This document shows positions 776-60,729 of a DNA stretch of 64,000 nucleotides, piece by piece (positions within the stretch are counted from its first letter, which is position 1; the number at the start of each line of letters is the position of its first letter). Source of the DNA: Isoetes taiwanensis (taxonomy: Eukaryota > Streptophyta > Lycopodiopsida > Isoetales > Isoetaceae); assembly GCA_021234155.1 (NCBI GenBank), contig JAJEKV010000013.1:18164746-18228745 (forward strand), written 5' to 3'. Position numbers and translations under genes: made by a program. The notes below the pieces were generated by a model. That model was not told where the DNA came from, ran no database searches, and was given only the letters and a program-made list of their open reading frames with translations.

Positions 776-2435
776 TGATCCCCCGTGGTAGAACGGGGAT
801 CGCGCCACTAGGGTCGGTGACGCTAGGTTGGCGATGCCCCTAGAGTTGCCCCCAGGATCCCAAAACTTCCTCAAGGTGGGATTTAATCCACGCTACAAAG
901 TGTGCATGTATGGCCAAAGTTTTGCCCAACGGATGTGTGGTGAGTTGGTATAGGCCTAGTAATGCCAAAATAAATGTGCACTTGGTGGGGGTTCAAACCC
1001 TCGCGGTGTATGTTTATATTTGGGAGTTGGTTCTTGGGGTTATCTGGCCATGATCCCCCCATGTGGTAGAACTTAAAAAGCCTATACATGTCCTCCACTT
1101 TGGCTGCTTTCGTTGGCGATGGGACAAAAACTAGCTAGATGCGTCAAAAGACTAGTCTAGACCGATAAAAGTTGGTTTTACATTCTTTGTGGCTGGTTTT
1201 TTCAGTTCTTGTCTAAAAAACCCTCACGGTCCTAAAAGTCATATGTGGCGGTGACACTAGGTGGTGGACGCTAGGTTGGCGATGCCCCTAGAGTTGCCCC
1301 TAGGATCGAAAAACTTCCTCAAGGTGGGATTTAATCCTGCCTACAAAGTGTGCATGTATGGCCAAAGTTTTGCCCAATCGGATGTGTGGTGAGTTGGTAT
1401 AGGCCTAGTAATGCCAAAATAAATGTGCATTTGGTCGGGGTTCAAACCCGGCCGGTGTATGTTTATATTTGGGAGTTGGTTCTTGGGGTTATCTGGCCAT
1501 GATCCCCGGCGTGGTAGAACTTAAAAAGCCTATACATGTCCTCCACTTTGGCTGCTTCGTTAGCGATGGGACAAAAACTAGCTAGTCTGTCAAAAGACTA
1601 GTCTAGACCAAGATAAAAGTTGGTTTACTGATTAAACGTGGCTGGTTTTTATCTTGTCTAAAAGCCCTCCTGGTCCTAGGATGCCCAAAAGTCATATGTG
1701 CAAAAGGCGGCACTAGGCTGGTGACGCTTAGGTTCGGGCGATGCCCCAGAGTTGCCCCCCAGGATCCTAAAACTTCCTCAAGGTGGGATTTAATCCACGC
1801 CTACAAAGTGTGCATGTATGGCCAAAGTTTTGCCCAATGGATGTGGTGAGTTGGTATAGGCCTAGTAATGCCAAAATAAATGTGCACTTGGTCGGGGTTC
1901 AAACCCGGCCCGGTGTATGTTTATATTTGGGAGTTGGTTCTTGGGGTTATACGGCCATGATCCCCACGTGGTAGAACTTAAACGCCTATACATGTCCTCC
2001 ACTTTGGCTTTCGTTGGCAGTGGGACAAAAACTAGCTAGTCTGTCAAAAGACTAGTCTAGACCAGATAAAAGTTGGTTTCTGGTCGTACCGCTGGTTTAA
2101 TTAAAGTTTCTTTGTCTAAAAGCCCTCCCGGTCCTAGGATGCCCAAAAGTCATATGTGGCGAGGCGCACTAGGCTGGTGGCGCTTAGGTTCGGGCGATAC
2201 CCCTAGAGTTGCCCCTAGGATCCGAAAACTTCCTCAAGGTGGGATTTAATCCTGCCTACAAAGTGTGCATGTATGGCCAAAGTTTTGCCCAACGGATGTG
2301 TGGTGAGTTGGTATAGGCCTAGTAATGCCAAAATAAATGTGCACTTGGTCGGGGGTTCAAACCCGGCCAGTGTATATTTATATTTGGGAGTTGGTTACTG
2401 GGGTTATACGGCCATGATCCTAATTGCCTATCTAA
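776..2435 (+). repeat. Tandem array of a ~456-bp unit with tRNA-like Pol III boxes
   Basis: The sequence AAAACTTCCTCAAGGTGGGA recurs at about 862, 1310, 1769 and 2225, giving periods of 448, 459 and 456 bases and roughly 3.5 units. Each unit contains a D-arm-like segment (TGGTGAGTTGGTATAGG, first at 938-953) and, about 50 bases later, a B-box match GGTTCAAACCC (990-1000, 1439-1449, 1896-1906, 2354-2364). That spacing fits an internal RNA polymerase III promoter, as in tRNA genes and tRNA-derived SINEs. Units differ by scattered substitutions and small indels. The array ends abruptly after the fourth T-arm-like segment, near 2430. No protein is supported: the short frames inside it are repeats of one another. 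Confidence 0.75.
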
Positions 2436-5400
2436 TGGTTAAACTAGATATGCTTAACATGATGTTTTTGCTTCAAACTTCAATTAATCTTGTTAATTAG
2501 AGTTGTATGTCCAAGTACCCAAATGAAACAATTCTTCTCATGAATACAATTCTCCAAAATCATTCTTGCTATAAAGCTCCAATGTTCTATAACCACTCCA
2601 TAAAGCTCATCAAATCATCACAAATCTGCACCTATGATAATGAATGATAGGTCTTGCATCTACATGGATGCCAAGTGGTTTCTGCTTAAAATGGCCATTC
2701 CTAGTTCTTATTTTAAGCAAATGCTATTGTTGCATCAGACCAAGTGGTAACATAGTTCCCATGGCCATTCTAAATCTTCTTTTTTAAAATGGTAAGGCAT
2801 TGGTATTTATGCCAGGAACGCCGCAGTGCAGACACATGCGGCGTTCCCTTTGCCCCTTGTGGGAGTATTTTGGGTGTATGTGTTTTCTCTGCTACCTCGG
2901 TACCTCCACAGGTTCAAATCGTGTTTGTTTTGCCGAAGAATGGTGTTCATTCTTTGCGATGGGTTATGGCTTATCTCGATTTCTCCCTCCGATGCTGGCG
3001 CTTTCCTTTCCCCGATGCGGGGCGATGGCGGCTTTGAGGATGCTAGATCACCGTTTTTCCCCAGCAATGCGGCTCCCGAGGTTCGCTCAACCTCTTGGAT
3101 CCCGGTTTGGGCTATTTATGTCCCTTAGACCCGCGACTTGGTGCTTTAAGCGTCAGGATCATAGCTGGGGCTGGAGCATTCATGCAAGATTAAGGTAACT
3201 CTTTTCTTCTCTCTTTTTGTTTTCTTTTCTAATATTTTGCAAATGTCTAAGCAAATAAGAATGTTCCCATTGTATCAGATACGCAATTAATGCTTTATCA
3301 AGGCGAGCATTCTCTGGTTATAAAGTCTGAGATGGTAAATGCATATTATGTTTTGATTTTTTTTTCATTTGTGGAAGGTACCAGGAGCATCTACCGAGTG
3401 TTTTGCAAGTATGTGCTTAACCTTGGGTAATTGCCATGTGAATCGTCCGACACTACATGCTGTAATGGCTCCAAATTTTGTTGAATTTTAAAGCTTCAAA
3501 TTCTTATTTAAGGTTTGTATAGACAACCTTCTCTGCTATAGTTGTGACTGGGGCCAAGTGCAATTTGTCCAAATGGTAGAAAAAACATATAATTCCTGGT
3601 TTGAGTCATCGTTGGAATGCACTCCTATATATCCATTATATTATCTCTACAGGCCAAACATGGGTGATCTACATGAAGAGAGAAAAAGAGTAAAGTGGAA
3701 GCTTATTCTTCAATCTCCAGCTCCACTGTAACAACTTCTAGCATTTGAAACATGGTACCAACTTCTAGCATTTGAAACATGGTACTGGCGTGTATTTTTT
3801 TAAGTCTCTTTGTTTTTTTGAAGCCCTTTACCCAAACATGTAATGCGCTATAGCATCCAAAGACATGAGAATTCCTTTCAAAATTCGTTTTGCATGCCTT
3901 AATATATTAATATTTATGTTCTAAAATCTACGTGATTTTTTCTTCCTTTGTAAATTTGGTGCGAGGAACGGGGCGGTGGCACCTTCTTGTACAACCCATC
4001 TTCCCAGCTATATTATTCGTATGTTCCTCCTATTATTTGCTTAGTTGAAGGGCTCATAAGAGCTTTACCATAACAAGGTCTTCATTTCAACGCTAATCCT
4101 TTCTTCCTTTGTAAATTTTGTGCAGAATGAGGGAGAGGAGGCATCTTATTTTTGCAGCCCATCCCGGCCAGGCCTTACATTTGCAAGATGGTTCAATCTT
4201 TCAACATGACTGGAGGTGAGGATTTTATCAAACATATGATTGTACCTATGGTCAAAAGCAAATGAGCTCTCTCAAATGGAGATGATAAACTTCGTGAAAG
4301 GAGCATTCATTAAATATCTATTCCCTATAAAAAGCAGACACTATCCAGCCATAGTTTTTGGGTTTTTATTGTTTAAAGCTCAAGACTCAAAGTACGTAAA
4401 AGTAGAGCATTTAGCATTAGCATCAGGTTCTTATCCAGATTCTCTGAGATATTCTACTAGCTTGACCGTGAATTCGAGAGAGAAGGTACTTTGCGACTAT
4501 TATTTGCACCCTAAGGGCATATAACGACTTTACCATGCAAAGGTCTCCACAACATACATTACACGAAAGTATTAGAAAGGACCCTCTTAAAAGAAACTAC
4601 ATCATCCACACGCAAATTGTTGCCTTAAAAACTTGTTCCGACCTTTTGTGAACACATTGAACTATGCTCAATAACTAGCCCTGCTCAATATTCCAATATG
4701 GACTGCATGCGATGTAAGTTAGAATGAGCATTTTGGGCATATGGGCTCACTTTTCAAGAACATGAATCTAGACAAGCTGTCCCAGTTATGCGAATCCAGC
4801 CTAATGTAGGTTGTTAACGAAATTTTCAGTTCAATTTCTCTTTGGCCTCATGTAGCATTATAACATTGCTTCATTTTTGTTTAGGATTCTCAATTTCTTT
4901 GGCCTTTCTCGTGAATAACATCTTAACTTTGCATAGAACTTCGGGTTTTAGCAGTTAGCATTTTTTTTCTACCTTTTGTCTTTTGAAAGAAGATGCATTG
5001 ATAATTACTTGCCTTTACCGATTCTTCTAGCCTTTTGTAAACGTAAGGGTAGCTATAAACGATTGCATATTTGTTGTAGCCGGGAGCTCCATAAGTTTGA
5101 TATTGTAAGTTTTCTTCATTTCAGTTTGTTGATCAATTCAATCCTTATCATTCAAGACAAGATATCATGTTCTATCCTTAGAACCAGATTTCATGTTCTA
5201 TTCATTTTGAAAGCAAGCATGTAATCCTTGCGGTACACTAAATTTCCAAGCTCAAGTCTTTATGATTTGTTATCTGAGGTTTATTGTGCCCGATCCTTGC
5301 GGAAGTACAGGTTTGAGGAGTATTGTCATTTTGGTTGATGCCTCATGTTGATATAAGTTAGACCTGATGTTTGTTCCTATTCCCGCCGGGTTTAAGCGCA

Positions 5401-10705: not shown

Positions 10706-13437
10706 ATGCAAGGCCAGAAATTGCCTGTTCAGCATCCAAAGACAGGGCCTTTCTCCTTTCATGATATTACCTGGCATGATTTTGATACTCCAACAAATAC
10801 AATTGGAAAAGTGAAGTGTGCATATATTCCTTATGATCGTGTTGGAGATTTCATCAAGGGCGAAGAGGCCAATAGTGATTGCCCAACCTATTTTCACAAA
10901 CGTAGCCAGCTGAAGAATGAATCTGGATCACTTTCCAGACCAAAAGCAGACTCATGGATATCAAACACTGTGTGAGCTCCATCTCAATTTTTTACATTTC
11001 TTTAGATCTCGTCTTTATGCAGCATGAACTAATTGCTGGATGTTTGTTAGTTATTGGTGCTCCTACGGTCCAACAGATAACAGGGGGGCAATATCTGCCA
11101 TGGTGATAAGTGAGGATAGACCCAAGGCTGGCCCAGGAAGTAGGCCTAAGCGTCTGAACAGCTCCATTAAAAGAGGTTGCCAATGTCACTTTGCAGTAAA
11201 GCGTTTATATCTGCATCCGAATGTTGCACTCATCTCATATCAGCAGGTTTTGCATGTTGACAAAAACACACAGCCTTGTCATGGGAGGTTAGATGCAAGT
11301 GTCTTAGGGATGCGGCCAATGCTAGCACCTAGAATATCTGACACACTTAGGCAGTGGGTTTTGTCAATGCTCTATGTAGGTCTACCTCCATCAGAAATTT
11401 TAGATGCACATATCAAAGTCGTTCGAGAAAGACAAGCAAGAGATGCTGGTTCTTTAAACAGAGATGACCTTCTACGTTCCAAGGATGTATTTAACCTTGC
11501 CCGGAAGGTGCAAAAAGGCACATTCCAATTACATGTTAATGACGAGGAAAGTGTTCGGCTATGGAGAGAGCAAAATGAGGATATGATATTTTTTTATCAG
11601 GACTGTGAGGGTTGTCTAGGCCCATTCACTTTGGGAATTCAGTCCATCTGGCAGCGAGAGATGCTTATTCAGTATGGCCACAATGGTATTATAGCATGTG
11701 ACTCCACATTTGGGGCAAAAGATATTAAGGTGAGATTTTACTGTGAGACGTTGATTCGTTAAAAAAGAATGCATTTAAGAGTTTATAAGTCTTATACATT
11801 TAATAATTTTGAATCAATGGCACTATCTGGTGCAGTATCCTCTGTACAGTTTGCTGGTATTTGATGAGTTTCAAAGTGCCCTGCCTGTAGCTTGGGTTAT
11901 AACATCAAGCTCAAAGGAAAAGGACATTGAAAACTGGATGGAAGCTTTAAGAGCACGTGCACTAGAACATTCACCTGATTGGTCGCCAAAAGCATTCATG
12001 ATTGACAATCCAACTTTTGACAGCAGTGTTATACGGTCTTGTTTCTGCACCCTTAGTATTATTTTGCAATCATAAACTCAACTCGTTTTGCCTTCTTCCA
12101 GGCGCGTCTTTGCCGTGGAAATGTATATCTGCTTGTGGACTGTAAGGGCAAGCTGGCTAAGACATCTCATGACAATGGTAAATTCTTGGAGTGCAAGAGC
12201 AGACATGCTAAAGAAGCTAGGTGAAATAATGTGCATGCACAAAGTCGCTTAGTCTTCGGAAAGCAGGCATCTATTTTGGTTCAAAGTTTTATGCAGCTTT
12301 ACCAACATGAAAATGCATTTTTGGTTTACTTTATGCAAGAATGGCTTCCTAATAATGGTGAGATATCATTAGCTATTGTTACCTACAGATGTTGAAGATC
12401 ATTCTAATAATGTTAACATATGTTTAAATGTCATAGAGCAATGGATTGAAACTGCAAGAAAGCTGAGACATGCAAGTCAAGGTGTCAATGCATCTGTAGA
12501 GGCATATCATAACACCATGGAGCAGCGATTTCTAGAGATAGGCCATATACAAGAGCATAGAGTAGATTGGTTGGTCTACAAGTTGACAACTGAAATACAA
12601 AGCTGCTACAGATACTTCCAGTTCCAAAAACAGCATGGTTTAATTTGCAGTTTGCAGCTGGATGGGATTATTGAAAATTCTTATAGGAGGGCATTGCAAA
12701 TATTGGATAATCAGGTCGAATTCTTAGATCTGGATGGGTCAATCGCTCGAGTTAGTAGCTGCTCGAAGCAGCATGTCATCTATACTGTTTATAATGTTGG
12801 ATCAGAATGCTCTTTCTGCGATTGTTTGTGGTCGCAGAAGGGCAACATATGCAAGCATGTTTTGAAGACCTACATGATGCTATATGGATCAACATGGCAC
12901 ATTTTTGATACACTGTCTCAGCCATTAACAAAAGCTGATAACAATCTTCCAATGTTTTTATCAGAAAACGTGGAGGGTGAACTTGCAATAGCCGGTGATA
13001 CAGTTCACTCAAACATGAATGCGAAATTGCTCTACGAAAAACTAGATTTGGAGTTGGAAATGTTCCGTTTAGAGTATTCAAATGATGTTGTTCTCATGGA
13101 AAGCATGCTCACAATGCTTCGGCAAGTCCGACATGAATTTCAGCAACTAAAATCAAAACGGGGTTTTAGCATGGTGCCATCCAAAGCTATAAGGCAACGG
13201 AGAGCAGATGAAATTAGTTCAAGGTTGAAACCAAAATCAGGAATAAGTAAATTTTCAGGGCGAAGACAAAAGGAAGTTATGATTAATGGTAGCCATCCAG
13301 GAATTATGCAATGGACCAGGTCACGGGCTCAAAAGAAAAGAACTATGCAACACGAAATAGATGTGGGCTTGGGGCAATGTCAAGGTTCATTCGATTGCTC
13401 TCTTGTTGATTATACAGATAGTTATTGTGGTACTTAA
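10706..13437 (+). CDS. SWIM zinc-finger protein derived from a MULE transposase
   Basis: The coding exons I infer are 10706-10971, 11051-11729, 11836-12035, 12102-12357 and 12437-13437, all with GT-AG borders and phases that join. The protein is about 800 residues. It has an N-terminal region with IPYDRVGDFIKGE and CPTYFH, then YWCSYGP and RGCQCHFAVKRLY, then a MULE-type transposase core (ACDSTFGAKDIK, YPLYSLLVFDE, ALPVAWVI, FMIDN, ICLWTVRASWLRHL). It ends in a SWIM finger, CDC...CKH, at 12817-12858, and a basic tail. The layout matches the plant family of single-copy SWIM proteins that includes Arabidopsis At1g60560 (from memory), thought to be domesticated transposases acting in the nucleus; their role is not settled. 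One problem: exon 4 changes frame near 12240-12250, equal to one lost base. No terminal inverted repeats were seen. The start codon follows an acceptor-like TTCCTGCAG, but an upstream in-frame ATG exists at 10613. Confidence 0.8.
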
Positions 13438-43200: not shown

Positions 43201-45612
43201 CATGTATATTAGATAGGGTTTAAAGCTGCATTTGTCATTGCCACTTCAAGGTTCAACTTCAGGGTTCTGCAACTTTCAGTTCCCTTCTACTGCCTCTTGA
43301 ACATTGCAAGCTGCCCAAAACGGCGTAGAAGTATAGCATCTACATCTTAAGGGGCTTCCAAACAACAAAAACTGTACCCCATACTTTAACGTCACTTACT
43401 CATAAACAACACATTAATATCCCAATCTTCATATCACATAGAAAGCCCACCAACGGTGGGCAATTTTCTAGTATAATACTAAGATGATAGCTTGTGCAAT
43501 ATCTTGCTTGTTCATTTTATTGTGTGTGACAACTTTCATTGAGTCGTTAAATGATCAGTTATTATTTTGCCCCCTATTGAGTGGGAATATTTTCGTGAAA
43601 ATCTGAAAAGCATTCTGGAAATGATGCACGATCTTTACTATAGAATGTTTCCTGGTGCAGATTGTCTAGTTACCGGAACAGCCAGAGATAAGTTGATTTT
43701 GCTACTTTATGTCAAATGCGGCAGTTATTTTATGGCATTTGATTTCGTCCCTTTTTGGTTTGTTAGATGGAAAAAAGATCGGGTTTGTGCTTTCGGATGG
43801 ATATCCGAGTCCATGCATCTAGCTTTAGAAGTTAGCTATTGCTCCACTTGTTGTTATCCGTTGCTTTAGATTTCCATGGCATCTGCATATTGATTTATAC
43901 ATGAAACGGACCCTTTTTGGGAGATAAGTCGACATCTTCTAATTGGTTAGTGCCATGGTTGTTAACAGCTAAATGTTCAATCCACCCGCTTGAATTTGGG
44001 CCTTTACATATGTCGTCTGATCCTCTTCTTAAAATTATCGAAGCTTTATGTAATCTGGCTGGTGATGCTTATATGCTCATGAAACTGCTGGTCCTCAATG
44101 GCATTAACACAGAAGAATCTTGGCAGGTCCTTCTGATTCATGTACCTATAATCAAAGCAGTTGGTTCCTGAGCTCTTCCAGGTTCTAAACTTGATCATGT
44201 TTACTAAATTACTAAATTTCTGATACATAACTCATGGTTTGGCACTTTGCAACAATCATTTTCTTATCAGCAACAACCATTTGCATGTAAGATGTTGCAG
44301 ATTAAGATGTTGCCGTAGTCTTTGTGTTTCTATTATTTCTATTTGTACGATTTGTTTCCTTACTGATTCTCCTTTGGATTGGCGGATCCAATGCAGAGTG
44401 GATACATTGTGAGAACCCAGATTTTAGCTACAACATTCTTATGCATTTAAGAGCTCACTATAATTTTGGGCATAAGTATTTAGATCGGGTCTGTGCTTTT
44501 GGATGTATATCCCACTCCATGCATTTCTTCCTCACGAAACATTGTGACTGCATTATCTGGCGCCTGTTATCCATTATTGTAGGCGGTTGTGCAAAGGACA
44601 GTTGTGTATGCCTTTGCAATAGATGGCGAATGGTAATGGCTATGGGTAGATTCTGAACAGAGGTTGAGTCCTTTACTAGAGGTTGCATACTAGAGGTTGA
44701 GTTGCAACGGGTCTCCGTCAGCGAATTGGGAAACGAGCAAATATGAGGTATACTTTCTTCTTTCGCATAGATTACCAGATTTAGAACTTAGATATTTTAG
44801 GTCCTTCTTTATGGGCAGCACCAGATGGGCGATTTTATGATTGTATCTTTTGGGTATCAATCTTTCTTATTAAATATCTTTCAATATGTTGAATTCTTCA
44901 TCACATGTTTCATGTTCTGATTTCTGGTTTTTTCTTAAAAAATGGTTAGTGCCATCCCCTGCGAATCGTGATTCATATTCTAACTTAATATATCTTGGAG
45001 AAAGTTTTGGTTGTCAGGTTTGAATTCACGAGACTTAATTCAGCACATTATAGTGCATTAGTAATATGCTTCATAGCACTCCTGCTCAACATATTTGCTT
45101 CAACGAATGGGGATGAAAAGTTCATTAATAGAGTAATAAGCTTCAATCCTCTGAATCTCATCAAGAAAAAAAAGGAAAAAAAAAACCATAATCCATTCAG
45201 CTGCTTCCTACCTAATTTTAGTTGGTAATGCCATCGATGCGAGCCATCGGATCGAGATTCTTGAATGGACGAGCATGCACCTCTCCCATGCATGCATGTA
45301 TTTTCTAGAGCTCTGGTTCGTTTAGGGATCGCTATTTCTTGCAGGTTCTTCATCGACTTTCCATCGGCGTTTTCTCCTCTCTCAGCAGTTCCTATGACTC
45401 CCACCCATCCTCTCTTAACTTGTATATTATTGTAAATGTTGTTTTTTGTCGCGTGGCACGCATGACCAGCCCCTCGCTTTTTTGACGTCTAAATATTGTT
45501 TTTTCGCGTGGCACGCGTAACCAGCCGCTTGCTTTTCGAGGTTTTTTCTCTATTGGTTTTTCGGTTGGTGATGTTCAGGTCCAGGGGTGACACTACAAGA
45601 GAATGATGGTTA

Positions 45613-45895
45613 AACGTCAGAATAATCGTCAGAGAGCCTTTATAAAATGGACAACCGCCTCAGCCCTTATTCCGATTCGAATATACCGACGAGTTTTAAT
45701 ATACCGACGAATAATAGTTTTATTTAGTGACATAGTCGATAATAGTCAGTTGAATAGTCAGAGAATTAGTCATTTAAATAGTCACAAAATTCGTCATTTT
45801 GTTAGTCAGATAGTTCGTCAGTTAATCATAATATTAGTCATCGTACTAGTCAATTTATTAGTCAATTCAATAGTTAGAATATTGGTCATTTTATT
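45613..45895. repeat. CACTA left subterminal repeat array
   Basis: TAGTCAG, TAGTCA and CGTCAG motifs recur at 12-15-base intervals, separated by AT-rich linkers. The 113-codon frame through this array is repeat-derived. Confidence 0.85.
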
Positions 45896-45952
45896 GAAAA
45901 TATTGCCAATACATAAAAATTGGTATTTTTCGTACTGCAAATAAATGAAAGG

Positions 45953-46015
45953 AGCTCCAAGGAATCGAACCTTGGTTAAACCATTATCTCCAACAACAAC
46001 TGATGTGTATAAAAG
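45953..46015 (-). other. tRNA-like B-box segment within the CACTA element
   Basis: On the minus strand CCAAGGTTCGATTCCTTGG is a perfect T-arm-like hairpin containing the B-box GGTTCGATTCC. A loose D-arm-like CAGTTGTTGTTGGAGATAAT lies about 30 bases upstream. No full cloverleaf can be drawn, so this is at best a tRNA relic or SINE head. Confidence 0.35.
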
Positions 46016-46464
46016 AATCATTTTTTCAGTCTACAAAAAAATCAATTTTTCAATTGCTCAGAACTTTGCTAGAAAAGAGAATTAACAAGATCAAGCTTTA
46101 ACTAATTATGATTACCTTGTTGATCTCCAATATGCATATACTCATTTTCGCACGTAAGAGGATCTTGTTGTAATTTCTATATATGACAGAGAGAGATTAT
46201 TAGAGAAAGAATGTACCAAGTACACATTTTCACCAAATCAAGTTGCACAAATCGTAAGAATAACATAAAATAATTAAAGCATCCAACAAACCTATCGTCA
46301 CTGTGGCTCACTCTTTTCTGCATTCCAATCAACTGCCAGCCAGAATTTAGGGATGCTGCGTCCCTGTTTTGCAGAAAATGCCCGGCCTGAAAATAGTCAA
46401 ATAATTTCTTGTTAGATCTTATGAACCTGCATTAAAGCGCAATATAATTTACTAATAAGATTAC

Positions 46465-47191
46465 CCAATCTACAAGCATGTCGCTTTCTTCACTGAAGGC
46501 CAGCTTTCCTGTTAAGATCTCAAGCAAGAGAACACCAAAAGAGTAAACATCTCCTGCTCGACTATATACTCCTTTGTGGACAACATCTGGATCCACGTAG
46601 CCACCAGTTTTCCGCACTACTGCAAGCTCTGAACTCTTTACAACAGGGACTCTCCCCAAGCCTGTCATCTGCAGAAATAATATGATATAATAGGTTTCAC
46701 GATTAAACTCTCAATAATTAATTGTTCTCCATACCGTGTAAGTTTTCAAAAAGAGACCCGTTTGGCGCATACTGAAAAATGAGCATTCTGAAGGAAAAAA
46801 ACTTCCAGATGAGTATATAAAGTTAGCCATAAACACGACCCTCAAAAGTAGACTAGACATAAACATGCATGTGGGTCTTCTCGTCACAAAATCCTATCAA
46901 GCTACTCAAGTGTTGATGATGAACACATGACATAAGTTCAACCTGTATTAACATTACTAACAAGAATTTTGACTCAAATGCACCCTTAAGGACACCTACA
47001 TACCTGAAATCTGAAACTGGCATCCACGTCTGAACTTTCAGCAATGCCTTTCTTTATGCTTTTTGTGGCAACCTCAGTTCCATCTCCTAAAATTCCCTTG
47101 TATACAAGATTAGTCGTGCCTTCTCCTATCAAATTACTGAATCCCTCACTCACCACTTCAATTTCCTGATACGTGAAACGGAAAACATGAC
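46465..47191 (-). pseudogene. Captured receptor-like kinase fragment (four exons)
   Basis: Minus-strand exons with GT-AG borders are visible. 47191-47004 is the N-lobe: FRFTYQEI, IGEGTTNLVYKG and the kinase Lys in EVATKSIKK. About 46942-46870 gives ELMSCVHHQHLSSLIGFCDE. 46787-46735 gives MLIFQYAPNGSLFENLH. 46668-46465 gives GYVDP and GDVYSFGVLLLEILTGK. Introns are kept, so it was copied from genomic DNA, not mRNA. The exon with the catalytic HRD loop and the DFG Asp is missing (the last exon starts MTGLGRVP where DFGLARV is expected), so it cannot be an active kinase. The donor gene would be a plasma-membrane receptor-like kinase of the plant. Confidence 0.85.
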
Positions 47192-47807
47192 CTGCAAAGA
47201 AATTTGAAACTTGTAAGTGCTCCTCTACAGGGGTAAGGAACACATTTCAAGGACATTTACCTCTTATAAGCCCCTTTGTGAAGACGGGTTTTCTAGCCTT
47301 CTGATGTGTAACAGGAAGCTTCTGTTTGCAAAACCGCTTGCGCAAAATCATAATCAGCCGCCTTGTCTGCAGTATTAAGCGGCCTCTGCCGCTTTGCCTC
47401 TACATATAATTAAAAATGCCATATCCTAATCCTGTCTTTTGCTGCATTCAAAAATTTGATAGTGCATTTCATTAGATTACTATGTAAAACATGTTACCTT
47501 GTGATCATGCGCCATATCGGTTTGCTGCTCTGCCAGACTCTGCAGTCCCTCCAAACCGCTCCGCCAGACTCTGCCGTTCCGGAACGAAAACTTAATGGCA
47601 ATGAAAACCTAAATCGAAATAATGGAAAGGGATTAAAAAACGAAATAGAAAATACTGAGGGAAAAAAGAACGGAGTTGAATGGGTATTTTGCACAGAGAT
47701 GCCTTGGATGTGGATAATCTCTACAAGCTACCTGTTCTAAGACCCATGATCAGACAACAATTCTTGTGTGCTATTATAAAGAAATTGCAAAGAAATCGCA
47801 AACTTAC

Positions 47808-48083
47808 AAATACTCGCTCTCCTGTCACAAACAGATCCATAGAATCATCTTTATGTAGCTCATCTGAGTTAATTTTACAGGGATCATCCTCTAATATATA
47901 GCAATCCAAATCGACATCAGTAGCTTCTAAGATTCGTTGTTTCTTGTTTCCAACTGCAATCTCTTCCGAGTACGACCGCTTACTGATGGTCTTTGGAGAC
48001 AAGCAAATTAAATCATCATCATCATCATCTTCACTTGAAGAACTAATCTCCCACACTTGGGGTTCTTGCGACACCATCTTCAA
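47808..48083 (-). pseudogene. Captured first exon of an acidic plant protein
   Basis: From the minus-strand ATG at 48077 (or 48083) the frame reads MVSQEPQVWEISSSSEDDDD, then a basic RSYSEE...NKKQR stretch. It continues with an alternating acidic region (DVDLDCYILEDD...DSMDLFVTGE) and meets a GTAAGT donor at 47807. It looks like the intact first exon of a nuclear-type protein. I do not recognise the parent; acidic N-termini of this kind occur in several uncharacterised plant proteins. Orientation matches the kinase fragment. Confidence 0.5.
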
Positions 48084-48807
48084 TTCAAATCCTTACCATG
48101 CCAAGATCTTTTTCACGAGCGAATAGCGGCAAGCAAATTATGCACTTCTACCATGCTTTCCTGAACTACATTAGGTCACATAACTCAAAACCACGAGAGA
48201 ACCCTCACTCTAATAAAAACAACTAGCTCATCAGGATCAATGTAGAAACCCTAAACCTGATACTTTGGAATTCTTCCGCCATAACAAACACCTCAAAATT
48301 CTGGACCTATCTGCGCTTGACCGTCGGACCTATTCTGGACCTTCACCGTCCGACCTAAATTTGCCGCTTGCAATTCAAACAACCCTGTTCAGCAACGAAG
48401 CCAAGCGTCCCAACAAATTTCCCGATCGGCTGGGGTTTTTTAGCTGGGGTTGAAAAGCTTAGGTAAGATGTAGTCTCTGTATGGGATACCGGGCCGATTT
48501 GCGTAAAAGTTGCTAAGCTTATAGTTGGTTTTTAGCAGGTTGCCTAACCCGAGGTGACCGATTTGCTGCCATTCTAGATGCCACGTGTTATGCCATGTCA
48601 GCTTTTTTTTTTTTTATCTCAGCCGTTAAGATTTAATTTATGAATCGACGGCTAGAAAAAATAGAAAACCCAGGTAATTCTTTCGGCCACCAGAAAAGCT
48701 ATGGAACTTAGTTACCGCCATTTCTACCAACGACAGTCTTCATTTCTGCCATGGAAATTGCTTCCTGCTCTTTGCTTGATTCAATCTAGAAGCTCTTTGA
48801 TTGCATT

Positions 48808-49053
48808 TTGGTGCTCTTCCTAACCATTATTTTGTTTAAGTTATATTTTGGACGGGATTGGGCTAGTGTTTATGGGGTCATAGCTGGTTATGCCCTAAGT
48901 GGTTTGTGTGTGGCTGTTGGTGGAGGGGTCTATACAGAAGCAGCAGATTTAGTTGGAAAGGTCGAGAAAGCCTCATATTTCATCGTTGAGTATGATAGGA
49001 AGTTTTGGATATGTTTGGAGCATGTGCTTGTAATTTCAAAAAATTGCATGTGA
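48808..49053 (+). pseudogene. Captured vacuolar H+-pyrophosphatase fragment
   Basis: The plus frame contains FKLYFGRDWASVYGVIAGYA and then [17 protein letters not shown]. In plant type-I vacuolar proton pyrophosphatases the conserved order is FKLYYGDDW, a GYGLGG helix, [21 protein letters not shown], the start of the substrate-binding region. Here four residues around DVGA are missing, and the DDPRNP Asp-rich motif that should follow is replaced by unrelated residues. Only this one short segment, opposite in orientation to the kinase, is present. It cannot act as a pump. Confidence 0.8.
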
Positions 49054-49324
49054 GAGGAGAAACAAATTGTAGTAAACAACACCTAAACAAACACAAAATT
49101 TACTACCAACTCCTATTTCTCCATTGCAATGGAGTTGGTGAAACATGATCTCCTCAAATTACAAAACATTTGGACTCGATTAAATAGAGATGTTATTTGA
49201 TAAATCAGAAAGTCTAGATGCTTAATATATCACTTACATCGTTATATTAATAAAGAAACTAGGGAATAGCAACAACTACAATAGATATTATGCATGACCA
49301 TTATTCTGACGAATATGGAAAGAT

Positions 49325-49650
49325 AGTCAGCATAATAGTCACAAAAGTAATCAGTGTAATCGTCCACTTGTAAGTCATCTAATTAGTCAGATATTTAGTC
49401 AAACATTTGGACAGACAGATAGTCAGGTTATTAGTCAGACTCTTAGTCAGAAAAATCGTCAGAATTGATTCGTCCGACTATTCGTCAGCTCATTAGTCAG
49501 ATTATTAGACAACTAATTAGTCAAGCTAAACGTTAGTTTAATGGTCAGGTAATTCGTCAGATGCTTATTAGTCAGTTTATTAGTCATATTTTTCGTCAGA
49601 TCCAAACGTCAGTTTGTTAGTCAGATAAAAGCGTCATATTTATAGTCAAA
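49325..49650. repeat. CACTA right subterminal repeat array
   Basis: More than twenty TAGTCAG/CGTCAG motifs at 12-15-base spacing precede the right terminal inverted repeat; they include TTAGTCAGA and TCGTCAGA variants. This mirrors the left array. Confidence 0.85.
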
Positions 49651-51214
49651 TACGCATTTGACAAACTATTTTAGACCCTTTGACGATTTTTCTGACGTTT
49701 AGCTGTCATTCTCTTGTAGTGTGATGCGCGAATTCGGTATTCTCTATGGAGCGTGGGTTTTTTTTGTGGGAACGTTTAGCAGCCTTGCGTTGTCTAAGTC
49801 CCTTGCAGAGATTTTATCACTAGGGTTTTTTCTCGAAAACACGAAAGGGCGAGGCTTTTTAATCCTGGCAATAAGCTCTTGGCAGGTACACTAGCTGACA
49901 TCAGTAGCACACAATTTTATTTGGGGTCCAGGTGTTATAACTGGATATTCCCTATGTTTTTCATTTTTTGGGTAGCCTGCGATGTGCAGCTACCCACTCT
50001 ATACCATTGTAGAAAAACTGCTGAGATGAATGAAAAGCTTAGCTATTTCTCCTCTCTTAGCAGTTCCCTTGTCTCTCTGTTTTTGATACCAGGCAGGGGA
50101 GGGGCTTCTTCCTGCTTGGTTTGCCAGTTTGACGTCTTTTTCTATATTGTGACATGTTCTTCCCCAATCTTGTACCTTCTTTGGCCATCCTTCAACCTTC
50201 GACCTCGATCCCGTTTTGATAATGAAGTTCTCTTTTTGTCGGGAGCTTTTGTCTGTTTTCATGCGAGCCCTTATTCAAGAATGTTGTTTCATCAATGACG
50301 TAGGCAATAGTCTTTATTAAACACCTGGCAAGTTTGGTGTCTGCATGCGCATCGGAAATGTAATTTGTCTTGACGACACTAGAAAGTCAAAGTCATTACA
50401 CATGCTTGTTATTTCCTAACAATGCAATGGAGGCTTTAGTAGGATAACATATATCATTAAAAACAATAAATGTAACCCCTCATATCCACCATGCAAACAG
50501 CCAAATTGCAGAGTTTTAGGTTAAATTAACAGCAGAAGCAGCTGATCTAAGCATATAACTTTAGACAAGATATAGTTTCTTGGTCAATTCTCAAATGTTG
50601 AAACCAAATGGTAGGCTAATGCACGTCTTTGGCATAGCCATATGCCCATCTTGCATGCATCTTCCAGCACATTTCCCAGCACCTTGCAACATATTTGAAG
50701 AAAGAAGACGCAAATATGTACAAAAATGATTGTTGGCTCATGAATTGAAGAAAGAAGAAGCAAATATATACAAGAGTGATTGGTGGCTCATGCGTTTTTT
50801 TGCGTTAAAACATTTTTCCAGTCTTGGTCAGTATAGTTATTATGGATCTGTGGTGTTGGAAACTGATAAATGATTTTCACTCGGAGCTCAGAGCAAAAAA
50901 GAGTAGGTATGCTGGAGCCATGTATGCAACCATTTCACTTTGTTTTTATGTAAGGTTGTTTCTTATTTTCTATTTCTTTATGCTGCTAACTTTTAGAATG
51001 CAGATGTTCATTCTTTTGCTACTATGTTTGCAGATCCTCTAGAAGTTGTGAACATGACAGATTGAATATTGGATCGAACTGGACAGATTATTTTTACCAC
51101 CAGCAAAGCCCTTTCTGTGGCCATATTTCTTTTTTATTTACCATAAAGCATGTGTTGGTATTTTGAGTTCAAAAAATGTCCATCTTACTTTGTATAATTC
51201 TTTTATTGAAGGGT

Positions 51215-55834: not shown

Positions 55835-57202
55835 CTAGAGCATGATCGTCTTCTCCCCTTTTGACTGCCCTTCACATCTCTCCATGTTATCTCCTTCTAA
55901 GACTGTTGGTTGCTCCTCAAACTCGTCTGCAGCAATCACATCATGGATTTTCTCATCTGTGACACCATTTTTTTCTAGTTCATCTACTTCACTATCTTCG
56001 TCCAATATTGCAGCTGGAATTTCAACCCCTTCCTTTTTAAAACAAGAATCATCTTGCTTGTTGATAGATACCGGTTGTTGTACTTCTCTCTTGTACAACT
56101 GTTTTTCGTCAAACAATACATCTCTACTTATTATTATCCGTCTTCTTGCAGGGTCATACAACCTGTATGCTTTTGCATTGTCATCGTATCCAACCAGGTA
56201 AGTGATCCATGATCTATTATCCAGTTTCAATCTCTTTTCTTCAGGTACATGAGTAAATGTCAAGCAACCATAAACTTTAAGTCTATTATAATACGGTTTC
56301 TTTCCCGACCATAACATTTCAGGAATTGCTCCATTTATACTAGCCGAGGGCAGCATATTCTGAACTTTAACAACAGTATTAACCGCTTCCTCCCACAAAA
56401 AATTCGGCAATCCTGTATGTTTTAACATGGATCTTACTGCGTTAAGAATCGTTCTATTCTTTCGTTCCGCCACTCCATTTTGTTGTGGCGTACCACTGCA
56501 AGTCAACTGTCTTTTGATTCCATGATCGAGGCAATACTGTTTGAATGCTCCTGACAGATATTCGCCACCTCTATCAGATCTGATACACTTAATTTTTCTG
56601 CCAGTTTCAAGCTCAACTTCCTTAGAAAAATATTTAAAAGCCTCAAAGGCTTGATCCTTTGTTCTTAAGCAGTAAACTTTGGTCTTTCTACTGAAATCAT
56701 CTATGAAAGTGATAAAATATCTCTTGCCCGTTAAGCTTCTAATGTTTAATGGACCACAAAGGTCAGTGTGTATCAGATTTAGTACTCCATTTGCTCTTTT
56801 GAATGATCTCTTGAACGGCAGCCTTGTTTGTTTTCCCAACATACACCCAATGCATGTAGAATTTTTAGATTTTGTTTGACAAGCATCAATCAATTTTTGC
56901 TTTGCCATTAGCTCGACATTTTTCATATTTGTGTGGCACAACCTCTCATGCCATATAGTCAAGTCAGCAACTGTCACAGCATTAATAAGTGGCAAAACAT
57001 TATTGTTTAATCCAAAAAGATTCCCGACTCGTTTTCCAATAAATTTAACTTCATTATTCATCAAAACAGTACATTGAAGGTTGTCAAATACAACTTTGTA
57101 ACCCAAATCTACCAACTGACTGACCGATATCAAATTTCTAACAAGGCTAGGTACGCAAAGTACATCTCTTAATTTTAAAGCCTTTCCTTCTAAATCAAAC
57201 AA
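55835..57202 (-). CDS. Copia A integrase region, open frame
   Basis: This 455-codon open segment has LCVPSLVRNLISVSQLVDLG (end of the protease-integrase spacer), the zinc site WHERLCHTN...CIGCMLGK, and the DDE core. The core has Asp in IHTDLCGPL, Asp in IRSDRGGEYL and Glu in NGVAERKNRT; all three are present. The family-specific VYGCLTFTHVPEEKR and an acidic linker follow. It inserts element cDNA into the genome. Upstream it is in frame with the Gag-protease segment but separated by a TGA at 57212-57214, where a Gly codon would be expected. Downstream a frameshift separates it from the reverse transcriptase. Confidence 0.9.
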   Translation of the reverse strand: MFDLEGKALKLRDVLCVPSLVRNLISVSQLVDLGYKVVFDNLQCTVLMNNEVKFIGKRVGNLFGLNNNVLPLINAVTVADLTIWHERLCHTNMKNVELMAKQKLIDACQTKSKNSTCIGCMLGKQTRLPFKRSFKRANGVLNLIHTDLCGPLNIRSLTGKRYFITFIDDFSRKTKVYCLRTKDQAFEAFKYFSKEVELETGRKIKCIRSDRGGEYLSGAFKQYCLDHGIKRQLTCSGTPQQNGVAERKNRTILNAVRSMLKHTGLPNFLWEEAVNTVVKVQNMLPSASINGAIPEMLWSGKKPYYNRLKVYGCLTFTHVPEEKRLKLDNRSWITYLVGYDDNAKAYRLYDPARRRIIISRDVLFDEKQLYKREVQQPVSINKQDDSCFKKEGVEIPAAILDEDSEVDELEKNGVTDEKIHDVIAADEFEEQPTVLEGDNMERCEGQSKGEKTIML

Positions 57203-59121: not shown

Positions 59122-60729
59122 TCACTCCCCCTTCATGTTACTATATTTACAATTTAGTTTCTCCTTCAGATAGCTAAACCTCCTGTCTGACAACGGTTTG
59201 GTGAGGATGTCTGCAACCTGATCAGTCGTATTGACATATTGCAGTTTTATAAAGTTTCTGCTCACAACATCTCTAATAAAATGCATTTCTAATTCCACAT
59301 GCTTGGTTCTTTCATGTAAAGTTGGATTCTTAGTCATTGAGATGCAGCTCATACTATCACATTTCAGAATTATTGGATCACTTTGCCTCATCCCACATTC
59401 TGGAAGCAACCTCCTGCTCCATATTATTTCCTTAGCAGCTAACGTAGTGGCGGCATATTCTGCCTCAGCAGAAGACATGGCAATTGACTTTTGTTTTCTA
59501 CATTTCCAAGATACTGGAGCACCTCCAAGCATCAGCACAAAACCTGACGTAGATTTCCCCTCGTCCAAATCACCTCCCCAGTCGGCATCACAATAAGCAT
59601 TCAAATTTAAATCTTCTGAATCAAATACTAAACCATGATCACTCGTACCCTTAAGATACCTGAGTATTCGATTGGCTGCAATCCAGTGACCTCTGCCAGG
59701 ATTTGTATTGTATCTGCCGAGTATATTAACAGAGAAAGCTATATCAGGCCTTGTACAGTTAGCAAGGTACAACAAGCAACCAATTAATTCCCGATACGGT
59801 ACTCCTTCCATTTCTTGTTTTTCTTCAACTGTACTAGGACATAACATATTTGAGATCTTATTTCCTGCTATCATTGGTGTCTTTACTGCCTTACAGTCAA
59901 CCATATTAAATCGTTTGAGCATGCCTTCAATATTCTGCCTTTGTGACAAGATCAGCACTTTGTTCTCTCTATCTCTTGTCATTTCTATCCCTAGAAATTT
60001 CTTTAACAGTCCAAGATCTGTCATTTTGAATCTGTCTTGAAGTATTGATTTACACTTATTTAGGATGTCATTGCTGCTCGCTATCATAATGTTGTCGTCT
60101 ACGTACAATGCTATGTAACAGTACTGCTCTTCTAGTTTGAATAAATAGATGTTTCCATCGTCCTTCAATTTTATAAATCCTTGTTCTTTCAAATAAGAAT
60201 CTATGCAGAGATACCACTGTCTAGGTGACTGTCTCAAACCATATACTGCTCTTCTCAATTTCCAAACCATGGCTTTCCCTTGTTCGAACCCATGAGCCTG
60301 TTTCATGTATATTTCTTCTTCTAATTTTGCATTTAAGAAGGCAGTACTTACATCCATATGATGAATTTCTAAATCTTTTGCATTTGCCATAGCCAATAGC
60401 ATTCTGATACTAGTTAGTTTAACCAGAGGCGAAAATGTATCTTCATAGTCTATACCATATTTTTGTGTAAAACCCTGTGCTACTAACCTGGCCTTAAATT
60501 TGGGCTTATCTCCATCAGCTCCTTGCTTGATTTTAAATATCCATTTACATCCAACAACATTTTTATTTTCTGGTTTCTTAACTAGTTCATAGGTTCCTGT
60601 TCTGTGGAAAGAATCCATTTCTTCCTTCATGGCCATTTTCCAAGCTTCCGAATTAGGACTGTTCAAGGCATCATCAATATTCTGTGGTACATCGACATCC
60701 ATTGTTGCTAAAATCTCTACTAGATCCAT
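59122..60729 (-). CDS. Copia B reverse transcriptase and RNase H, intact 535-codon segment
   Basis: This is an uninterrupted version of what is broken in A. GCKWIFKIK and DTFSPLVKLTSIRMLLAM begin the reverse transcriptase, YVDDNIMIASS is the catalytic motif (residues about 215-225), and the RNase H part has CDADWGGDLDEGKS and AMSSAEAEYAATTLAAKEI. It ends NCKYSNMKGE just before the polypurine tract. The ATG shown is internal: the natural polyprotein reads in from the integrase, but a 4-base loss near 60765 puts the two parts in different frames. It probably stayed intact because the insertion is young, not through function. Confidence 0.9.
   Translation of the reverse strand: MDLVEILATMDVDVPQNIDDALNSPNSEAWKMAMKEEMDSFHRTGTYELVKKPENKNVVGCKWIFKIKQGADGDKPKFKARLVAQGFTQKYGIDYEDTFSPLVKLTSIRMLLAMANAKDLEIHHMDVSTAFLNAKLEEEIYMKQAHGFEQGKAMVWKLRRAVYGLRQSPRQWYLCIDSYLKEQGFIKLKDDGNIYLFKLEEQYCYIALYVDDNIMIASSNDILNKCKSILQDRFKMTDLGLLKKFLGIEMTRDRENKVLILSQRQNIEGMLKRFNMVDCKAVKTPMIAGNKISNMLCPSTVEEKQEMEGVPYRELIGCLLYLANCTRPDIAFSVNILGRYNTNPGRGHWIAANRILRYLKGTSDHGLVFDSEDLNLNAYCDADWGGDLDEGKSTSGFVLMLGGAPVSWKCRKQKSIAMSSAEAEYAATTLAAKEIIWSRRLLPECGMRQSDPIILKCDSMSCISMTKNPTLHERTKHVELEMHFIRDVVSRNFIKLQYVNTTDQVADILTKPLSDRRFSYLKEKLNCKYSNMKGE

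Follow-up and report, generated by a model that had tools for sequence, protein, structure and literature searches.

A putative Pack-CACTA element of Isoetes taiwanensis with two apparent captures of host DNA, one of them traceable through related elements

Results

A complete CACTA element of 4131 bp spans positions 45591-49721 of the window analysed here, a 64,000-nucleotide stretch of the Isoetes taiwanensis genome (C941:18164746-18228745, in an assembly of 1.66 Gb and 1110 contigs). The element is very probably a non-autonomous Pack-CACTA element, and comparison with its donors and siblings indicates an interior made of two captures of host DNA separated by 316 bp of family backbone. Parts of the first capture, a fragment of a receptor-like kinase gene, are present in seven loci with shared junctions and differing internal deletions, and the second is a single contiguous block from another locus. 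A reading made earlier from the sequence alone had proposed a CACTA element carrying captured host DNA; that observation is partly confirmed and the interpretation placed on it partly supported.

Boundaries and insertion site

The left terminal inverted repeat (CACTACAAGAGAATGA, 45591-45606, plus strand) and the right one (49706-49721, minus strand) begin with CACTA, are 16 bp long and match each other perfectly, and a TGA target-site duplication lies on both sides (45588-45590 and 49722-49724), as had been read previously. The flanks of the element were joined with one TGA and used as a query, and 40 places were scored of 3362 candidates. At all 40 the joined flanks matched across the joint with 87-90% identity (the element's own site was not among the matches listed), and a single TGA was present at the joint in each of the four sites that were read. 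The boundaries are therefore exact, and 45591-49721 is one element lying within one copy of a high-copy repeat. The exact 16-mer of the ends occurs 725 times in the genome (372 + 353) compared with 23 occurrences of a reversed control, so that the termini are indeed repeated.

Within the ends lie subterminal arrays of [TC][AC]GTCA units, mostly at 12-bp spacing, at 45615-45864 on the left and 49324-49648 on the right, both on the plus strand. Plus-strand motifs number 11 in the left and 17 in the right outer 600 bp, whereas the rest of the window, scanned as 600-bp stretches in 10-bp steps, contains at most two per stretch, which bears out the arrays described earlier. The arrays point the same way rather than mirroring each other as the inverted ends do, with motif strand ratios of 11 to 0 (45591-46190) and 17 to 2 (49122-49721).

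Siblings and family backbone

Siblings were sought with the left 600 bp and right 662 bp as queries, and 40 candidates were scored for each, of 407 and 363 respectively (this element included); counts of family members are lower bounds. Both ends were found in 12 of the first 14 loci fetched, with equal 3-bp duplications in nine of the 12, and in three of five larger siblings, all three with equal duplications. The anticipated sibling elements with shared termini thus exist. Shared among them is a backbone comprising approximately 0.8-1.1 kb of the left side, a piece further in, and the right end; the DNA between these parts differs. In the element described here the backbone corresponds to 45591-46359 (5' part), 47357-47672 (the 316-bp piece between the captures) and 49048-49721 (3' part), all on the plus strand.

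Open stretches of 64 aa or longer were taken from 11 siblings, 135 in all; at a threshold of 0.001 four of them matched Glyco_hydro_77 and one strictosidine synthase, and one of the four is a PF02446 piece (1.3e-8) in sibling L011. Sibling L012 carries a piece named as phytochrome on the basis of a PDB match to phytochrome A (3.8e-24), the Pfam matches of the same reading frames being weak and below curated cut-offs. A further sibling reading frame, provisionally named as a piece of an arginine methyltransferase, gave no PDB match and the name was dropped.

Capture A, a receptor-kinase fragment

The first capture (46361-47356, minus strand; PF00069) corresponds to positions 2049-2384 and 3501-4164 of parent locus L001 on C1061, the donor region being C1061:252548-254664. 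It differs from the parent at 30 of 995 sites (12/336 and 18/659 for the two pieces), or 3.0%. The junction of the two pieces is an internal deletion scar at 46695-46696, where 1116 bp of the parent are lost and, on inspection, a 2-bp TT overlap remains in place of the 5 bp indicated by BLAST. Four kinase exons were mapped, the number proposed earlier, and parts of two more were recognized by eye in translations. The missing 1116 bp include the catalytic-loop exon (motif recognized by eye; PF07714 in the parent), which leaves the captured piece unable to encode a complete kinase domain.

Parts of capture A are present in this element, in five relatives and in one relic (L002), the relatives holding different portions of one 2.1-kb donor stretch. 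In L001 coordinates, L017 (far end not found in the 4.3 kb read) retains 2049-2238 and 2914-3620; L007, L009 and L019 retain approximately 2049-2129 together with 2940 to 3848-3868; L008 retains 2954-3868; and the relic, for which no ends were found in 6 kb, retains 2304-3237 and 3659-4168. The left junction of the capture lies at the same point in L017 and L019, and also in L009, where the backbone side is 3 bases shorter; in L007 its position is blurred, and L008 lacks this junction. The right junction, at the inner backbone piece, lies at the same point in L002. Within the stretch common to five of the elements, all five differ from L001 at two sites. Because junctions are shared and deletions differ, the comparison is most simply explained by uptake of capture A once, in an ancestor, followed by separate internal deletions in each copy. 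Adjoining the kinase relic, at L002:256-951, is a reverse-transcriptase stretch (PF00078, 1.3e-8), which may be the insertion responsible for the broken end of the relic.

Capture B, a contiguous block from C1100

The second capture (47673-49044, minus strand) is a single block collinear over 1.37 kb with each of two duplicate loci (L003 and L004) lying 70 kb apart on C1100, at each of which it forms one piece; a small gap is needed to align positions 49045-49047 with the donor. It contains, in order, the start of an exon 2 cut by the capture boundary (47673-47731, minus strand), an intron, the acidic first exon of the same gene (47808-48077, minus strand, with an ATG at 48077 and a likely splice donor after 47808), upstream DNA, and a scrap of a H+-pyrophosphatase exon (48522-49044, plus strand) with two 12-bp deletions relative to L003 and L004. 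By eye, the acidic exon is also present in L004, where the reading frame continues through apparent further exons. The gene may encode an RPM1-interacting-protein-13-like protein, a tentative name; a literature search for this name together with CACTA found no paper. The receptor-kinase exons, acidic exon and pyrophosphatase segment noticed earlier all lie inside the element and have been traced to their parent loci, the first to C1061 and the other two to C1100.

Capture B differs from L003 at 34 of 1329 sites (2.6%, gaps excluded, in comparison with a BLAST identity of 93% that counts gaps) and from L004 at 39 of 1333, and the two loci differ from each other at 5 of 1351 in the same stretch. 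L003 and L004 themselves constitute a segmental duplication, 96.55% identical over 8 kb with gaps counted. At 34 sites the element differs from both loci; at five it agrees with L003 against L004, and at none with L004 against L003. These patterns suggest, most simply, that capture B is older than the duplication; a third donor copy, or exchange between L003 and L004, might instead account for them.

In a search in which 40 of 608 candidates were scored, the two C1100 loci were, besides this element, the only places matching the greater part of block B, and the block was seen in no other family member. The pyrophosphatase scrap is a dispersed repeat: when L005 was used as the reference, eight of ten other loci matched (L003, L004, L006, L033, L034, L035, L036 and L039), the match of L039 covering 126 bp and that of L036 lying only partly within the exon, and no match was obtained for L037 or L038. 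In total, nine loci, L005 included, hold pieces of a single pyrophosphatase exon and the DNA flanking it. The PF03030 exon is listed at C1100 (twice), C985, C1033, C1054, C1041, C1103 and C1075, among others.

Source of transposase

The element contains no transposase: none of its 26 open stretches that reach 50 aa matched a transposase family, the matches at 0.01 being confined to kinase and pyrophosphatase families, and its interior is assigned to backbone and donor DNA. It would have been mobilized in trans, by a transposase from CACTA relatives that share its 16-bp ends and have similar arrays. The genome is rich in Transposase_21 (150 of 2312 candidates scored). Five larger close siblings, on C345, C1072, C68, C1055 and C135, were examined for a transposase; no transposase family was found in interior stretches of at least 64 aa in those on C1055 (L027) and C135 (L028), and the interiors of the other three were looked at by eye only. 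Seven long pairs of neighbouring 16-mers were also taken from the first 100 of the 725 places, one of which (C101:656677) was 342 bp short at its right end. These pairs contain 59 open stretches of 120 aa or longer, of which 20 were scanned, none from the pair on C149 (L047/48). PF02992 pieces were present in L041, L043, L045 and L049, and DUF4218/DUF4216 pieces in L040 and, below curated cut-offs, in L042. Arrays pointing one way, like those of the element, were found in L041, L043/44, L045/46 and L047/48, and L042 showed 16 to 3 motifs at the one end read. The 12.3-kb pair L043:1-10000 and L044:1-2341 encloses PF02992 pieces together with pieces of a leucine-rich-repeat receptor kinase, which may reflect either uptake by an element that carries a transposase or the presence of a gene between two elements.

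Acquisition of host DNA

The donors remain in place, and reading 8-9 kb at each of them (C1061, and C1100 twice) revealed no family end. One filler base separates the start of block A from backbone position 46359, two other capture junctions share 0-2 bases, and the fourth (49045-49047) is blurred by the small gap, all as judged by eye. These features together favour, by a modest degree, a mechanism in which repair of an excision gap involved template switching that copied host DNA into the element. Block A would have been acquired once in an ancestor whose copies then lost different internal parts, with block B present in this element as a second, single contiguous piece.

The principal alternative is tandem insertion, in which two family elements flank a stretch of donor DNA, lose their inner ends and move as one hybrid. 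This model, reportedly put forward by Catoni et al. in 2019, is described in PMC8903248 and PMC13317346. The order of backbone, host DNA and backbone is that expected from such an event; however, the stretches read at the donors showed no family end and the event would be required twice, and tandem insertion is accordingly regarded as a real but less probable route than template switching.

Several observations weigh against the account of the element given here. The order of backbone and host DNA fits tandem insertion as well. Three of the 12 siblings with both ends lack equal target duplications as read, and the blurred left junction of L007 means that the argument for single origin there is the shared stretch itself. 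The pairing of long elements rests solely on neighbouring 16-mers; those long-pair ends that match the ends of this element are 65-77% alike, the ends in L047, L049 and L050 gave no match to it over 90 bp, and among the long pairs fetched no transposase-bearing member at approximately 90% identity was found as a partner. The arrays are mirrored in L040 and L049/50, and for this reason the transposase of L049 may belong to another family.

Coding potential

The acidic exon and the kinase exons are both on the minus strand, and the mapped exons contain no stops. Splicing on paper from 47808 to 46668 is in frame and gives 168 aa, the last residues of which come from the next intron. Two other routes stop early: exon 1 joined to the truncated exon 2 yields 122 aa, and exon 1 joined to the kinase exon that ends at 47004 yields 103 aa out of frame. 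A transcript, if made, would most probably begin in the captured upstream region, read along the minus strand and yield a truncated product, and the element would at present be without protein function. Chimeric transcripts or small RNAs, as suggested by the sequence-only reading, are possible.

Because block B brings upstream DNA, a start codon and a first exon onto the strand of the kinase exons, the element might conceivably serve as a mobile gene starter, supplying an acidic N-terminus fused in frame to a piece of the kinase C-lobe, or as the origin of small RNAs directed at two parent loci approximately 97% alike, with the sibling series forming a time course of template-switching capture and subsequent deletion; this is a speculative proposal that is probably incorrect. 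That the element already specifies a functional chimeric protein or regulator maintained by selection is less plausible again. The shared strand, the in-frame splice, the stop-free exons and the distribution of changes (14 of 537 sites in the four kinase exons, 14 of 322 in introns) are in keeping with such a role; the two cut exons, set apart by eye, differ at 2 of 136 sites. However, the gap between exons and introns is too narrow to be evidence of selection acting on the element, and constraint on the parent gene would itself reduce the coding figure; the five synonymous and nine non-synonymous changes (pN/pS approximately 0.5 on 14 changes) decide nothing, the catalytic-loop exon is missing, block B is confined to this element among the family members scored, and two alternative splice routes stop early.

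Other features of the window

Integrase and RVT_2 domains of Copia-type retrotransposons are encoded on the minus strand at 55838-57202 and 59125-60729, and their similar translations suggest two copies. An open reading frame at 12376-13434 contains a SWIM zinc finger, as in MULE-type transposases.

Discussion

The sequence-only reading had treated the contents of the element as three captures from three unrelated genes. Three distinct coding signatures are indeed present, and the contiguity of the acidic exon and pyrophosphatase scrap in both C1100 loci reduces them to two captures, leaving three independent events highly improbable. The converse, in which all the fragments form one continuous host locus, holds for two of the three at C1100, where the 8-9 kb read at each locus contained no family CACTA end. 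The idea that a host gene has CACTA-like ends by chance is favoured by the presence of exons and nothing further, is contradicted by the empty sites, target duplications and hundreds of end copies, and can be set aside with near certainty.

CACTA elements with pieces of ordinary plant genes are an already known kind of element. In the parts of PMC8903248 consulted, Pack-CACTA elements of Arabidopsis and maize resemble the one described here in having CACTACAA ends, a target duplication, no transposase and host coding DNA inside; here, several siblings share one capture with differing later deletions, and those passages contain no such series. Of the cases found, the closest appears to be soybean Tgm-Express1, as far as described in the sections consulted of PMC1947982: it is a CACTA element with several host gene fragments in which introns are kept. 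Those sections report five fragments in 5.7 kb, a location within an intron of the F3H gene and chimeric transcripts, whereas the present element has two captures, is inserted in a repeat and is known from sequence alone.

The element also resembles En/Spm-type CACTA elements with tnp2, in that larger pairs with identical 16-bp ends hold PF02992 pieces and the subterminal spacing is 12 bp, the subterminal motif of En/Spm being 12 bp. It differs from them in lacking a transposase and in having arrays that point the same way at both ends.

To our knowledge, few worked cases underlie what is understood of host-DNA uptake by CACTA elements. In I. taiwanensis seven loci allow one capture to be traced by its shared junctions and differing later deletions, and a second capture in the same element shows similar divergence from its donor (3.0% and 2.6%). 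If transcribed, the element would be another natural experiment in exon shuffling; if not, its realistic-looking captured exons serve as a warning to gene annotators. Its chief value lies in the sibling series, which would record both capture and decay.

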